Translations under genes and position numbers: made by a program
The notes under the pieces: generated by a model
Seen by the model: only the letters and a program-made list of their open reading frames with translations
Databases searched by the model: none
Told to the model about the DNA's origin: nothing
NCBI RefSeq assembly: GCF_040782645.1
Contig: NZ_CP160403.1
Span: 5,863,001-5,927,000 of the forward strand
DNA length: 64,000 nt
Direction: 5' to 3'
Source: Streptomyces sp. HUAS ZL42
GTDB taxonomy: Bacteria > Actinomycetota > Actinomycetes > Streptomycetales > Streptomycetaceae
Shown: piece by piece, positions 13,222 through 19,150 of the stretch
Numbering within the stretch: the stretch's first letter is position 1
How the letters are laid out: each line of letters opens with the position of its first letter

Positions 13222-13496
13222 GTGTCCGGTATGCGCCTTCTGTGAGGTGGGTGGCTAAACTGAAGCGAAGTGATTTCAATTACATCCCGTTTACCTTCCA
13301 CGTGGCTCGGGCAGCTCGCGTGATCTTGCTGATGTGGGGGAAATGTAAAGATCGCGGGGTGGGAATGTGCACCCATGTCCCCCTCGTCACGTCACCCCGC
13401 AGAAAACTGTCACCTCACGTTGAACACGCCACCACACCTGTACGTACCCGGTGTTGAGCGACCGACTGGGGGAACCCCCGGACATCGGAGGTGGGC

Positions 13497-14072
13497 GTGC
13501 GCAAGGATTCCGTCGTGGCCAATGAACGTGGATCGAGGGCCCGACATCGCATGTCCCAGCCCTCGGAACCAGATGAGGAGCTGATGCGTGCCCTGTACAG
13601 GGAGCACGCCGGACCTCTCCTTGCGTACGTCCTTCGCCTGGTCGCGGGTGACCGCCAGAGAGCCGAGGACGTGGTGCAGGAAACACTCATCCGTGCCTGG
13701 AAGAACGCCGGCCAGCTCAATCGAGCGACCGGATCGGTACGCCCCTGGCTGGTGACGGTCGCGCGTCGCATCGTCATCGACGGCCACCGAAGCCGGCAGG
13801 CCCGGCCGCAGGAGGTCGACCCGTCGCCGCTGGAGGTCATCCCCGCGGAGGACGAGATCGACAAGGCGCTGTGGCTGATGACTCTGTCGGACGCGCTCGA
13901 CGACCTGACCCCGGCCCACCGGGAGGTGCTCGTCGAGACGTACTTCAAGGGGCGTACCGTCAACGAGGCGGCGGAGACCCTGGGTATTCCGAGCGGAACC
14001 GTCCGTTCCAGGGTGTTCTACGCCCTGCGGTCGATGAAGCTGGCACTGGAGGAGCGGGGGGTGACGGCGTGA
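13497..14072 (+). CDS. sigU: ECF RNA polymerase sigma factor, SigU-like
   Basis: 191-residue extracytoplasmic-function sigma factor. Region 2 (YREHAGPLLAYVLRLVAGD ... AEDVVQETLIRAWKN) and region 4 (LTPAHREVLVETYF ... LGIPSGTVRSRVFYALRSM) are both complete. I chose GTG 13497, which has GGAGGTG six bases upstream; the earlier in-frame GTG at 13491 overlaps that ribosome site. The stop overlaps the ATG of a zinc-binding anti-sigma gene by one base. In S. coelicolor the sigma factor at this map position is SigU, reported to affect secretion and differentiation. The symbol rests on synteny from memory. Confidence 0.88.
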   Translation: MRKDSVVANERGSRARHRMSQPSEPDEELMRALYREHAGPLLAYVLRLVAGDRQRAEDVVQETLIRAWKNAGQLNRATGSVRPWLVTVARRIVIDGHRSRQARPQEVDPSPLEVIPAEDEIDKALWLMTLSDALDDLTPAHREVLVETYFKGRTVNEAAETLGIPSGTVRSRVFYALRSMKLALEERGVTA

Positions 14073-14884
14073 TGAGTGTTTACGGGGGATTCGGAACAGG
14101 CGGTACGGGTATGTCTGGCCCCATGCAGGGATCTCCGGGCCCGAGCGAGCACGAGACCGTCGGCGCCTACGCGCTCGGTATCCTCGACGACGCCGAGGCG
14201 ACCGCCTTCGAAGCACACCTCGCCACCTGCGAGTGGTGCGCCCAGCAGCTCGACGAGCTCGCCGGGATGGAGCCGATGCTCGCCGCGCTCGCGGACCTGC
14301 CGGGCGCCGGTACACCCGCGATCGGCGAGTCACTGTCGGTCAGGCCGAGCCCGCGCCTCGCGGACAAGCTGGTCGACGAGGTCGCCGAGCGGCGCGCCCA
14401 GAAGCGCCGCCGCAGCTTCTACATGGTGGCCGCCGCGGCCGCGCTGATCATCGGCGGCCCGCTCGTCGCCGTGACGGTGACCGGTGGCGACTCCGGCGGC
14501 GGCACCGAGGCGGCGCCCGCGAGCCCGGCCAAGACCCTCTTCGGCACCATGAGCGACAAGGTCACGGCAACCGACCCGTCGACCGACGTCACGGCGACCG
14601 TCGCCATGGCGAAGAAGGACTGGGGCACCTCGGCGGTCCTGGAGCTCAAGAACGTCAAGGGCCCGGAGAAGTGCTCGCTCATCGCCGTCGGCAAGAACGG
14701 CGAGCGCGAGACGATCTCGTCCTGGTCCGTACCGAACTGGGGCTACGGTCTGCCGAACGCGAAGACGGACGAGGCCAAGAACCCGCTGTACATCGGCGGT
14801 GGAGCGGCCTTCACCCCGAACGAGATCGACCACTTCGAGGTCATGACCTTCGACGGGAAGAAGCTCGTCCAGGTCGACGCGTAG
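14072..14884 (+). CDS. rsuA: Membrane anti-sigma factor with zinc-binding ASD domain, RsuA-like
   Basis: 270 residues. The cytoplasmic N-terminal domain carries the ZAS motif H49-x3-C53-x2-C56 (AHLATCEWCAQQL). A membrane helix lies at ~116-136 (FYMVAAAAALIIGGPLVAVTV), and the rest forms an extracellular domain of the anti-sigma-K C-terminal type. It should hold SigU at the membrane until an envelope signal arrives. The ATG overlaps the sigU stop by one base, giving coupled translation, and a strong terminator follows 33 bases after the stop. No site-2 protease gene is nearby. Confidence 0.88.
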   Translation: MSVYGGFGTGGTGMSGPMQGSPGPSEHETVGAYALGILDDAEATAFEAHLATCEWCAQQLDELAGMEPMLAALADLPGAGTPAIGESLSVRPSPRLADKLVDEVAERRAQKRRRSFYMVAAAAALIIGGPLVAVTVTGGDSGGGTEAAPASPAKTLFGTMSDKVTATDPSTDVTATVAMAKKDWGTSAVLELKNVKGPEKCSLIAVGKNGERETISSWSVPNWGYGLPNAKTDEAKNPLYIGGGAAFTPNEIDHFEVMTFDGKKLVQVDA

Positions 14885-15013: not shown

Positions 15014-17413
15014 GTGGCCGCTCAGGCTCAGCAGGAGACCGCGCTCGACTCCGCACACGACTCCGTACGGGACCGAGAGATCAGCGCCGAACAGGAACAC
15101 CTGGACCAGGTGTACCGACGCCTCGAGGAGAAGATCCACGAGGCGGAGTTCCTGATGAAGGACGCGGCCCAGCGCGGGCAGGTCGGCACGCCCGGCGCAC
15201 TCGCCGAACGGGACGCACAGGTCTTCCGGGCGGGCATCCACCTCAACCGACTCAACAACGAGTTCGAGGACTTCCTCTTCGGCCGTATCGACCTGCTGCT
15301 CGGCAAGGACGGCAAGAAGGGGCCCGACGGCGCCTACACCGCAGTCGAGCCGGCGGAAGGGGCCGTACGCGCCGACAACACCGCCGACATCGCCGAGACC
15401 CTGCACATCGGCCGCATCGGCGTGCTCGACCAGGACTACGCCCCGCTGGTGATCGACTGGCGGGCCCCGGCGGCCGCTCCCTTCTACCGGTCCACCCCGG
15501 TGGATCCGGGGCGGGTCGTACGGCGGCGGGTCATCCGTTCCAAGGGCCGCCGGGTGCTGGGCGTCGAGGACGACCTGATGCGGCCCGAGCTGAAGGCCTT
15601 CCTCGACGGGCACGAGCTGCCGGTCATCGGCGACGGCGCCCTCATGGCCGCCCTCGGCCAGGCCCGCGGCCACACCATGCGGGACATCGTCGCCTCCATC
15701 CAGGCCGAGCAGGACCTGGTCATCCGCGCCCCCGCCGCCTCCGTGACCTACGTCGAGGGCGGCCCGGGCACCGGGAAGACGGCCGTCGCCCTGCACCGGG
15801 CGGCATACCTCCTCTACCAGGACCGGCGCCGGTACGCGGGCGGCATCCTGATCGTCTCGCCGACCCCTCTGCTCGTGGCGTACACCGAGGGCGTCCTGCC
15901 GTCCCTCGGCGAGGAGGGCCAGGTCGCCATCCGCGCGATCGGCTCGCTCGTCGACGGCGCCACGGCCACGCTGTACGACTCCCCGTCCGTGGCCCGCGCC
16001 AAGGGCTCGTACCGAATGCTCAGGGTCCTGCGGAAGGCGGCCCGCGGCGCGCTGGAGCTGGGACCGGGCGGCGGCGGTGCCGCGCGTCCCGCAGCGCCCG
16101 GTCAGCTCGCCCTCGGCGACGACGACACGATGGCCCCCGCGGGCCCGCCCACCCGGCTCCGCGTGGTCGCCTTCGGGCGCCGGCTCGAACTGGAGGCGGA
16201 CGACCTGGACCGCATCCGCCGCACCGCCCTCGGCGGTACCGCGCCGGTCAACCTCCTGCGCCCCCGCGCCCGCAAGCTGCTGCTGGACGCCCTCTGGGAG
16301 CAGTCCGGTGCCGCCACCCGCCACACCGACCCCGAACTCGGCGCCGAACTGCGGTCGTCGTTCGACGAGGACGTGACGGACGAGGACTCCTTCATCGCCT
16401 TCCTCGACGCCTGGTGGCCGGAGCTGACCCCGAAGGCCGTTCTCGCCGCCATGGCGGACGAACGGCGGCTGGGCCGCTGGGCCCGGCGGATCCTGAACCC
16501 CGGCGAGATCCGCAGGGTCGCCCGCTCCCTCAGGCGCGACGGCCACTCCGTCCACGACATCGCGATGCTCGACGAGCTCCAGGCCGTCCTCGGCACCCCG
16601 GCCCGCCCGAAGAAGCGGCGCGAGCTGGATCCGCTCGACCAGCTCACCGGGCTCGAGGAGCTCATGCCCGTACGCGAGGAGTCGCAGCGCGAGCGGGCCG
16701 AGCGGCTGGCACAGGAGCGCACCGAGTACGCGCACGTCATCGTCGACGAGGCCCAGGACCTCACGCCCATGCAGTGGCGCATGGTCGGCCGCCGGGGCCG
16801 GCACGCCACCTGGACGATCGTCGGCGACCCGGCCCAGTCCTCCTGGTCCGACCCCGACGAGGCCGCCGAGGCCCGCGACGAGGCCCTGGGCACCCGCCCG
16901 CGCCGCCGCTTCCAGCTGACCGTGAACTACCGCAACCCGGCCGAGATCGCCGAACTGGCGGCGAAGGTGCTGGCGCTCGCGATGCCGGGTGCCGAGTCGC
17001 CCTCGGCCGTGCGCTCCACCGGAGTCGAACCGCGTTTCGTGACAACGAACAACGGACACAGCAGCGGCGTACGCGAATCGCTCGCCCGTACGGTCCGCGA
17101 GGAGGCCGCACGGCTGCTGGACCGGGTCGACGGCACGGTCGGCGTCGTCGTCGCCATGAACCGGCGCGAGGAGGCCGCCCGCTGGCTGGCCGGGCTCGGC
17201 GACCGCGTGGTGGCGCTCGGCAGCCTGGAGGCGAAGGGCCTGGAGTACGACGCGACGGTCGTCGTGTCCCCGGCGGAGATCGCGGACGAGTCGCCGGCGG
17301 GGCTGCGGGTGCTGTACGTGGCGCTGACCCGGGCCACCCGGCAGCTGACGATCGTGTCCGCCGAGCGGGACGACCCGGACCCGAACGGCGTGCCGGACCT
17401 GCTCAGGGACTGA
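15014..17413 (+). CDS. HelD-type UvrD-like helicase (RNA polymerase-recycling motor)
   Basis: 799 residues. An N-terminal coiled-coil arm (SAEQEHLDQVYRRLEEKIHE) precedes a superfamily 1 motor with Walker A GGPGTGKT (~249-256), Walker B VDEAQD (~576), WTIVGDPAQS (motif III) and VALTRATRQL (motif VI). A long N-terminal arm with this motor is the HelD layout; HelD removes stalled RNA polymerase from DNA, and one Streptomyces paralogue (HelR) protects against rifamycins. GTG 15014 follows AGAAGGGGG. The short gap upstream holds a terminator and no obvious rifamycin-associated element, so this is more likely the housekeeping HelD. The assignment to HelD rather than a DNA-repair helicase rests on the N-terminal arm. 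Confidence 0.85.
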   Translation: MAAQAQQETALDSAHDSVRDREISAEQEHLDQVYRRLEEKIHEAEFLMKDAAQRGQVGTPGALAERDAQVFRAGIHLNRLNNEFEDFLFGRIDLLLGKDGKKGPDGAYTAVEPAEGAVRADNTADIAETLHIGRIGVLDQDYAPLVIDWRAPAAAPFYRSTPVDPGRVVRRRVIRSKGRRVLGVEDDLMRPELKAFLDGHELPVIGDGALMAALGQARGHTMRDIVASIQAEQDLVIRAPAASVTYVEGGPGTGKTAVALHRAAYLLYQDRRRYAGGILIVSPTPLLVAYTEGVLPSLGEEGQVAIRAIGSLVDGATATLYDSPSVARAKGSYRMLRVLRKAARGALELGPGGGGAARPAAPGQLALGDDDTMAPAGPPTRLRVVAFGRRLELEADDLDRIRRTALGGTAPVNLLRPRARKLLLDALWEQSGAATRHTDPELGAELRSSFDEDVTDEDSFIAFLDAWWPELTPKAVLAAMADERRLGRWARRILNPGEIRRVARSLRRDGHSVHDIAMLDELQAVLGTPARPKKRRELDPLDQLTGLEELMPVREESQRERAERLAQERTEYAHVIVDEAQDLTPMQWRMVGRRGRHATWTIVGDPAQSSWSDPDEAAEARDEALGTRPRRRFQLTVNYRNPAEIAELAAKVLALAMPGAESPSAVRSTGVEPRFVTTNNGHSSGVRESLARTVREEAARLLDRVDGTVGVVVAMNRREEAARWLAGLGDRVVALGSLEAKGLEYDATVVVSPAEIADESPAGLRVLYVALTRATRQLTIVSAERDDPDPNGVPDLLRD

Positions 17414-17481
17414 TCGCGGATTGATCCACATGAACTCTCGGTACGGGAATGGGCTTACGGGATCCGTTTGTTAGCCTGGGT

Positions 17482-17617
17482 GTGACACCGGCCCGATCCA
17501 AGCCCCCGGGCCCAACCTTCGTCGCTACGAGCGACCACTTGCCGCGAGGCGAGCATGGCGGGTCGGTGTCACTGAACGTTCGAGAGGCCCGCGTCACTGT
17601 GACGTGGGCCTCTTTCG
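17482..17617 (+). ncRNA. Candidate structured RNA upstream of malic enzyme
   Basis: Bases 17482-17495 (GTGACACCGGCCCG) can pair with 17559-17572 (CGGGTCGGTGTCAC) as a 14-base stem with a single G-U pair. It encloses two hairpins: GTCGC/GCGAC (17521-17535) and CTTGCC-GCGA-GGCGAG with a GNRA tetraloop (17538-17553), plus a C/G-rich strand near 17500-17515. Eleven bases further on is a strong terminator hairpin (17584-17612) followed by TTTC. A -10-like TTAGCCT ends at 17477, placing the 5' end near the first stem base. It could be an independent small RNA or a riboswitch-like attenuator of the malic enzyme gene, which starts 113 bases later. I do not recognise it as a known class. Confidence 0.6.
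17584..17616 (+). terminator. Terminator ending the candidate RNA
   Basis: Thirteen-base arms GAGGCCCGCGTCA and TGACGTGGGCCTC (one G-U) with a 3-base loop, followed by TTTC. Confidence 0.8.
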
Positions 17618-17725
17618 TCGGAGAACAAAAAGTTCGCAATTCAACCCGGCTAACGCCTACTCGGCGGTAGGTGCGACGATCGGACGGCATCCAGCGTCAC
17701 ACGGTGAAAGCAGAGGAAGTCGGCC

Positions 17726-19150
17726 ATGGCAACGGCGCCCAGCGTCTCCTACTCGATGACGGTTCGCCTGGAGGTGCCCGCGAGCGGAACCGCGGTCTCC
17801 CAGCTCACCACGGCCGTCGAGTCCCACGGAGGCTCGGTGACCGGCCTCGACGTCACCGCGTCCGGTCACGAGAAGCTCCGTATCGACGTCACCATCGCGG
17901 CCACCTCCACCGCGCACGCCGACGAGATCGTCGAGCAGCTGCGCCAGATCGAGGGCGTGACGCTCGGCAAGGTCTCCGACCGTACGTTCCTGATGCACCT
18001 CGGCGGCAAGATCGAGATGGCGTCGAAGCACCCCATCCGCAACCGTGACGACCTGTCCATGGTCTACACGCCGGGTGTGGCCCGCGTCTGCATGGCGATC
18101 GCCGAGAACCCCGAGGACGCCCGCCGCCTCACCATCAAGCGCAATTCGGTTGCGGTCGTGACGGACGGCTCCGCGGTGCTGGGCCTCGGCAACATCGGCC
18201 CGAAGGCCGCACTGCCGGTCATGGAGGGCAAGGCGGCCCTCTTCAAGCGCTTCGCCGGCATCGACGCCTGGCCGATCTGCCTCGACACGCAGGACACCGA
18301 CGCCATCGTCGAGATCGTCAAGGCCATAGCTCCCGGGTTCGCCGGCATCAACCTCGAGGACATCTCCGCCCCGCGCTGCTTCGAGATCGAGGCGCGGCTG
18401 CGCGAGGCCCTCGACATCCCCGTCTTCCACGACGACCAGCACGGCACGGCGATCGTCGTCCTCGCCGCCCTCACAAACGCACTTCGCGTCGTGAACAAGG
18501 GAATTGGGGACGTGCGCGTGGTCATGTCCGGCGCCGGCGCGGCCGGTACGGCCATCCTCAAGCTGCTGCTCGCCGCGGGTGTCAAGAACGCGGTCGTCGC
18601 CGACATCCACGGCGTCGTGCACGCCGGCCGTGAGGACCTGGTGGACGCCGCGGCCGACTCGCCGCTGCGCTGGATCGCCGACAACACCAACCCCGAGGGG
18701 CTGACGGGCACCCTGAAGGAGGCCGTGCGCGGCGCCGACGTCTTCATCGGCGTCTCCGCTCCCAACGTGCTCGACGGCGTCGACGTGGCCGCCATGGCCG
18801 AAGGAGCGATCGTGTTCGCGCTCGCGAACCCGGACCCCGAGGTGGACCCGGCAATCGCCCGCCAGACGGCCGCAGTTGTGGCCACGGGACGCTCCGACTT
18901 CCCGAACCAGATCAACAACGTCCTGGTGTTCCCGGGCGTCTTCCGCGGCCTGCTGGACGCGCAGTCCCGCACGGTCAACACGGACATGATGCTGGCGGCC
19001 GCGAAGGCGCTGGCGGACGTGGTGACCGAGGACGAGCTGAACCCGAACTACATCATCCCGAGCGTCTTCAACGACAAGGTCGCGGGCGCGGTGGCCGGGG
19101 CGGTGCGGGAGGCCGCGAAGGCGGCGACGAACAACGCGTCCGGCATCTGA
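17726..19150 (+). CDS. NAD(P)-dependent malic enzyme with N-terminal ACT domain
   Basis: 474 residues. Residues ~10-90 look like an ACT regulatory domain (VRLEVPASGTAVSQLTTAV). The malic enzyme core has YTPGVARVC, the K-rich NSVAVVTDGSAVLGLGNIG, metal-binding INLEDISAP and HDDQHGTAIV, and a Rossmann SGAGAAGTAI (~268). It decarboxylates malate to pyruvate, making NADH or NADPH. The short length, without the phosphotransacetylase tail of MaeB, is normal for the actinobacterial form. The ATG follows AGAGGAAGT. A candidate structured RNA and terminator lie directly upstream and may control it. Coenzyme preference cannot be read safely. Confidence 0.93.
   Translation: MATAPSVSYSMTVRLEVPASGTAVSQLTTAVESHGGSVTGLDVTASGHEKLRIDVTIAATSTAHADEIVEQLRQIEGVTLGKVSDRTFLMHLGGKIEMASKHPIRNRDDLSMVYTPGVARVCMAIAENPEDARRLTIKRNSVAVVTDGSAVLGLGNIGPKAALPVMEGKAALFKRFAGIDAWPICLDTQDTDAIVEIVKAIAPGFAGINLEDISAPRCFEIEARLREALDIPVFHDDQHGTAIVVLAALTNALRVVNKGIGDVRVVMSGAGAAGTAILKLLLAAGVKNAVVADIHGVVHAGREDLVDAAADSPLRWIADNTNPEGLTGTLKEAVRGADVFIGVSAPNVLDGVDVAAMAEGAIVFALANPDPEVDPAIARQTAAVVATGRSDFPNQINNVLVFPGVFRGLLDAQSRTVNTDMMLAAAKALADVVTEDELNPNYIIPSVFNDKVAGAVAGAVREAAKAATNNASGI

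Follow-up and report, generated by a model that had tools for sequence, protein, structure and literature searches.

The analyzed window (64,000 nucleotides of Streptomyces sp. HUAS ZL42, contig NZ_CP160403.1) carries, on its plus strand, genes for a HelD/HelR-like helicase (15014..17413; below the NCBIfam cut-offs) and for a malic enzyme (17726..19150; Pfam malic and Malic_M above cut-off, below the NCBIfam cut-offs), separated by an intergenic gap of 312 bases. Within this gap, and therefore outside both coding sequences, lies a predicted small RNA (sRNA) gene. Directly before the helicase gene, positions 13491-14884 of the plus strand hold the gene of an ECF sigma factor, which exceeds the cut-off of NCBIfam PRK09645, together with a zinc-finger ORF of anti-sigma-like character.

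All parts of the sRNA gene are placed on the plus strand. A preceding sequence-only reading had proposed a 14-base long-range stem with one G-U pair, and the pairing check bore it out: the 5' strand of this helix, P1 (17482..17495), pairs with its 3' strand at 17559..17572. P1 encloses a C-rich, partly to largely unpaired joining segment, J1/3 (17496..17520), the hairpin P3 (17521..17535, GTCGC/GCGAC, with a loop of the YNNGA type) and the hairpin P4 (17538..17553), whose tetraloop GCGA (17544-17547) is of the GNRA (GNGA) type; both hairpins had been recognized beforehand. They are followed by an intrinsic terminator hairpin of 13-15 bp with a short T run (17582..17615), in which the previously described 13-base stem (17584-17596 with 17600-17612) can be extended to 15 bp. 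Upstream lies a SigR-type ECF promoter pattern, GGAAT-N19-GTT (17446..17472), composed of a -35-like GGAAT (17446-17450) and a -10-like GTT (17470-17472), which overlaps a vegetative-type -10 element, TAGCCT (TANNNT; 17472..17477), read from the sequence. The latter was correctly seen as ending four bases before the first stem; it is only a part of the predicted promoter, the GGAAT box having passed unmentioned. The transcript would start near 17480 and end near 17612-17617, with a length of approximately 130 nt. RNAfold gave -80.8 kcal/mol for the sRNA region, compared with a shuffle mean of -60.2 (z of -4.91; none of 200 shuffles as stable).

A terminated, structured RNA unrecognized by Rfam had been anticipated, and indeed no Rfam 15 covariance model matched the sRNA above its gathering cut-off, in the window and in 38 loci. 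The evalue-mode search of positions 17380-17725 revealed nothing close, the best sub-threshold match, Thr_leader, reaching 18.8 bits where the cut-off demands 55. At one locus harboring an sRNA copy (L118), an Rfam ASdes match (61.6 bits, 1058-1125) was present and did not overlap this copy.

The screening of genomes showed that the sRNA is widespread. Using blastn, it was found in 198 of 199 genomes of Streptomyces, and a covariance model (R1) detected it in at least 120 of 121 genomes of the family, representing 16 of 17 genera. On the level of the class, R1 matched at least 189 of 394 genomes and R2, a model built from a diverse alignment, at least 236 of 394 (77 of 137 genera); in a sample of the phylum, at least 31 of 396 genomes gave a match, all 31 belonging to the same class. 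It should be stressed that covariance-model scans of more than 40 genomes were run with stricter filters, and these genome counts are therefore lower bounds. For two genomes, one of the genus (G178) and one of the family (G207), no convincing copy was obtained even with R2 (E of 0.08 and 0.02, respectively), which may reflect a loss or an assembly gap. A pattern scan of genomes yielded at least 119 loci, and the matches listed include Cellulomonas, Brevibacterium, Arthrobacter, Microbacterium, Nocardioides, Gordonia, Williamsia, Rhodococcus, Geodermatophilus, Rothia, Kocuria, and others. Among these listed matches, R1 recognized all 80 tried and R2 the other 39 of 39, as is to be expected from the pattern itself.

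Several sets of loci were used in the comparisons. The genus set comprised 67 rows (70 of the 198 blastn matches were fetched, of which three were discarded as their core duplicated that of another locus). The distant set comprised 22 loci (23 rows), hand-picked for family diversity from the 149 non-genus genomes matched by R1 in the class and chosen before their promoters were inspected. From the pattern scan, 80 of the at least 119 loci entered the first analyses; the other 39 and loci L071-L109 were added later, after the exclusion of two duplicates and of two weak matches on the opposite strand. The anchored set held 186 of 188 rows, four weak opposite-strand matches and the long-P3 copies L136 and L137 being left out. 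Finally, a diverse alignment of 63 rows was made from 65 candidates minus L188 and L226, after the duplicate L114 had been removed.

The three-way junction fits the 63 diverse sequences, with 95.9% of cells paired, compared with 31-46% when the partners were slid. Two-sided changes, the compensatory evidence whose lack the sequence-only reading had named as fatal to its proposal, were present at 16 of 23 pairs in this alignment and at 3 of 30 pairs in the close set of 67 genus loci. The number of cells with such changes in the 63-row alignment was 163, versus 55 in shuffles, and none of 500 shuffles was as good. They affected 12 of the 13 P1 pairs and two pairs of P3 (alignment pairs 47-59 and 49-57), while the top three pairs of P4 and its GNGA loop were near-invariant even where P1 and P3 covary. 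Two properties of the alignment bear on these values: its row ends were placed by the best P1 helix, which favors pairing in P1, and 25 of its 63 rows were contributed by the pattern scan, in which P3 and P4 are prescribed, and the invariance of these hairpins is therefore in part built in. In a control of the P1-helix score on 103 rows, the mean was 34.9 and the lowest value 20, compared with a mean of 18.3 and a highest value of 35 for shuffled 3' flanks. Conserved in spite of being unpaired are, in J1/3, CCCC-GG and one A (invariant in the 63 rows) and, in the hairpin loops, GA (P3) and GNGA (P4); J1/3 columns 24, 25, 30, and 31 are predicted to be mostly paired. A variant with a much longer P3 arm was seen in the divergent copies L136, L137, L269, L270, and L271, in which the C-rich strand and P4 are unchanged, and one locus (L124) carries two tandem copies of the sRNA (2081-2185 and 2263-2367), approximately 180 bases apart. 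Across the 67 genus loci, the mean pairwise identity was 0.969 in the core (J1/3-P3-P4), 0.641 in the promoter, 0.384 in the terminator region, and 0.321 and 0.235 in the outer flanks. As judged from the aligned sequences, the comparison shows the predicted sRNA to be a member of an actinomycete three-way-junction family with a variable, covarying P1, near-invariant P3 and P4, and a conserved C-rich J1/3.

The terminator is less general. With a simple detector and one mononucleotide shuffle of each sequence as a control, a terminator-like hairpin was found no more than 75 nt from P1 in 56 of the 67 genus loci (3 after shuffling), in 9 of 16 further family loci (none after shuffling), in only 3 of 23 distant rows (none after shuffling), and in only 8 of 80 among the pattern-scan matches listed, the last value being near the 5 obtained in shuffles.

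SigR-dependent promoters have been described as GGAAT-N18-19-GTT (PMC9205884), and the pattern of the window matches this consensus exactly. In the whole window, GGAAY-N17-19-GTT occurs three times, compared with a chance expectation of 0.67 (a count of three was attained in 3 of 100 shuffles), and it is therefore the conservation of the pattern, rather than one match alone, that gives it weight. Compared with dinucleotide shuffles, this strict pattern was present upstream of the sRNA in 55 of 67 genus loci (shuffle mean 0.56), in 8 of the 16 further loci of the family (0.11), a set with 12 loci from other genera and 4 from the genus, in 11 of 23 distant rows of the class (0.04), and in 24 of 79 among the pattern-scan matches listed (0.17). 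With the added loci, which carry no shuffle control, the pattern was counted in 83 of 99 genus loci, in 7 of 21 family loci outside the genus, and in 31 of 118 among the pattern-scan matches listed (7 of 39 among the added loci of that kind). The distance from the end of GTT to P3 was 48-49 bases in the 55 genus loci, 44-51 in the distant rows, with a single value of 61, and 42-49 among the 79 pattern-scan matches listed. Each of the tandem copies of L124 has its own GGAAY-N18-GTT. These observations support the placement of the sRNA behind a predicted promoter of the SigR/SigH ECF group in Streptomyces and in several distant lineages. In the genus, this pattern overlaps a vegetative-type -10, and it is therefore probable that in these lineages the sRNA is raised, above a basal expression, under thiol-oxidative stress or a stress related to it. 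The same overlap was observed in Microbacterium loci.

The position of the sRNA, with a structured domain followed by a terminator approximately 110 nt before the start codon of the malic enzyme gene, may suggest a cis-acting riboswitch or attenuator, in which ligand sensing by the domain would govern the terminator at 17584-17612. This had been raised in the sequence-only reading, where ligand control of malic enzyme was held to make sense and a switch pairing between GGGCCC and the terminator to be possible. Within the family, the sRNA is indeed co-directional with the malic enzyme gene in 91 of 120 loci (66 of 83 in an earlier subset), but it is inverted, and thus divergent, in the remaining 29 (17 of 83). 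All 91 co-directional loci come from the genus, while the inverted ones comprise 8 of the genus and all 21 examined of other genera of the family, and the gene order of the window is therefore not general. In the examined loci of other families, the neighbours are unrelated to malic enzyme (e.g., 2-oxoglutarate dehydrogenase-like, AIR synthase-like, ApbE/DUF349, carboxyltransferase/WhiB, and PHO4 phosphate transporter genes). The GGGCCC motif is present at 17508-17513, but a possible partner (GGGCC/GGCCC within 45 nt after P1) was found in no more than 30 of the 67 genus loci, so that the pairing is not conserved and the terminator switch was rejected. Furthermore, a separate conserved promoter pattern stands directly before the sRNA. 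The leader model is thus already largely refuted, and we consider it very improbable; by the comparison of loci, in which orientation and neighbours change between lineages, the sRNA is shown to be a separate predicted gene, in line with the free small RNA that had been offered as an alternative. A conserved protein of approximately 200 aa adjoins the sRNA, in either relative orientation, in 63 of the 186 anchored rows (L113, L120, L155, L190, and 59 more); no Pfam or NCBIfam match was obtained for the members tried. Of these loci, 56 could be assigned to genera, mostly of the Micrococcales, with about 15 on the Nocardioides/Propionibacteriaceae side.

A separate gene may also be constitutively transcribed, with TANNNT driving the sRNA by means of a housekeeping sigma factor and the GGAAT box being incidental or serving another factor. 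As the two elements overlap in the genus, the housekeeping factor may suffice there; TANNNT lies within 40 bases upstream in all 67 genus rows (a count with no chance control). No strict ECF pattern was seen in 14 of 21 family loci of other genera and in 87 of 118 loci among the pattern-scan matches listed; among the first 80 of these, 45 have a TANNNT instead, and 9 have a TTG-TANNNT promoter with no ECF pattern. Neither promoter type was seen in 15 of 186 rows (among matches listed). Against this explanation speak the recurrence of GGAAY at SigR-type spacing in distant loci, the lack of TANNNT in 13 of the 35 loci outside the family that carry the strict pattern (among matches listed), and the exact fit of the window to the published SigR consensus. 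We lean against constitutive expression, while regarding it as a serious contender, and the predicted stress control is likely in some lineages and may or may not extend to others.

What we propose, with somewhat better than even confidence, is an independent, conserved sRNA gene with a stress-type promoter pattern, whose product of approximately 130 nt would act in trans. P1 and the GNRA hairpin would hold, present, and protect the J1/3 segment (CCCCGG...CCAA), and this segment would pair by a short seed with the G-rich ribosome-binding sites of several mRNAs, which is the mechanism that we prefer. When the own genome was searched for extended complements to J1/3, the gene itself and two sites with 3 mismatches were obtained, and the reversed-pattern control also gave three sites, which argues against a long antisense target; such a target was rejected. 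The same result lends weight to a rival reading, an RNA that does not pair with mRNAs at all, the P3/P4/J core docking an actinomycete protein to be sequestered or delivered, according to a 6S/Ms1- or CsrB-like logic. In favor of protein binding is the near-invariance of the P4 top and its loop (in part due to the selection of rows by pattern, as mentioned above), and the invariance of P4 pairs would be explained by protein or tertiary contacts no less than by base pairing. On the other hand, the partner is only putative, and the C-rich J1/3 is conserved too, as it is in pairing sRNAs. A purely protein-binding RNA is a sizeable minority possibility in our assessment, and we rate the docking of a partner protein on the invariant core as almost equal in likelihood to the preferred seed pairing by J1/3.

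In a broader reading, this sRNA would serve the SigR/SigH response to thiol-oxidative stress as a regulatory RNA of the whole actinomycete class, its aptamer-like three-way-junction core being preserved throughout that class and no Rfam family covering it. It would be an actinobacterial counterpart of stress-sigma sRNAs. This reading is offered tentatively, at somewhat less than even confidence, and was slightly weakened by the low frequency of the strict pattern in other genera of the family and among the added pattern-scan loci listed. A structured RNA retained so broadly in the family and the class probably has some general role, and if the ECF promoter is used, the thiol-stress response would gain an RNA arm.

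A function is known for very few of the sRNAs of Streptomyces (PMC8388888). The same text lists scr2952, cited there from Vockenhuber et al. 2011, as one of 11 S. coelicolor sRNAs confirmed by expression, and describes it as conserved in more than half of the tested Streptomyces (PMC8388888). Its name follows SCO2952, a gene listed as HelD-like (PMC10719064), and a malic enzyme is encoded by SCO2951 (PMC7494193); the sRNA of the window is likewise situated after a HelD-like gene and before malic enzyme, and is therefore probably scr2952, as judged by name and neighbours only. If so, the transcript is likely already known in one species. The confirmed S. coelicolor set is, however, stated to be in Rfam (PMC8388888), whereas the sRNA of the window has no Rfam 15 match, which either argues against this identity or means that scr2952 has no covariance model. 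The open-access texts searched describe neither a class-wide family nor a SigR link for this sRNA; the class-wide range, the covariation-supported fold, and the SigR-type promoter pattern are new here.

Other known RNAs share single features with this family. Ms1 is also a conserved structured RNA of actinobacteria, but in S. coelicolor it measures approximately 230 nt and lies in the SCO3558-SCO3559 region (PMC9130861), a length and a place that differ from those of the sRNA described here. The 6C RNA is likewise an actinomycete sRNA with C-rich unpaired segments (PMC8388888). It is built, however, of two stem-loops with at least six C each, whereas the sRNA of the window has a C-rich junction strand and hairpin loops of the YNNGA and GNGA types; two stem-loops of the 6C kind are absent from its fold, and the Rfam search gave no match to it either. 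In enterobacteria, MicA and RybB are ECF-sigma-dependent sRNAs, encoded by standalone genes with a stress promoter and a terminator, which belong to the sigma-E envelope stress response and act with Hfq. The predicted sRNA gene of the window would share with them the logic of a stress ECF sigma factor, a standalone gene, and a terminator, here with a promoter pattern of the SigR/SigH type, and this likeness is one of logic, with no kinship of sequence or fold being claimed.
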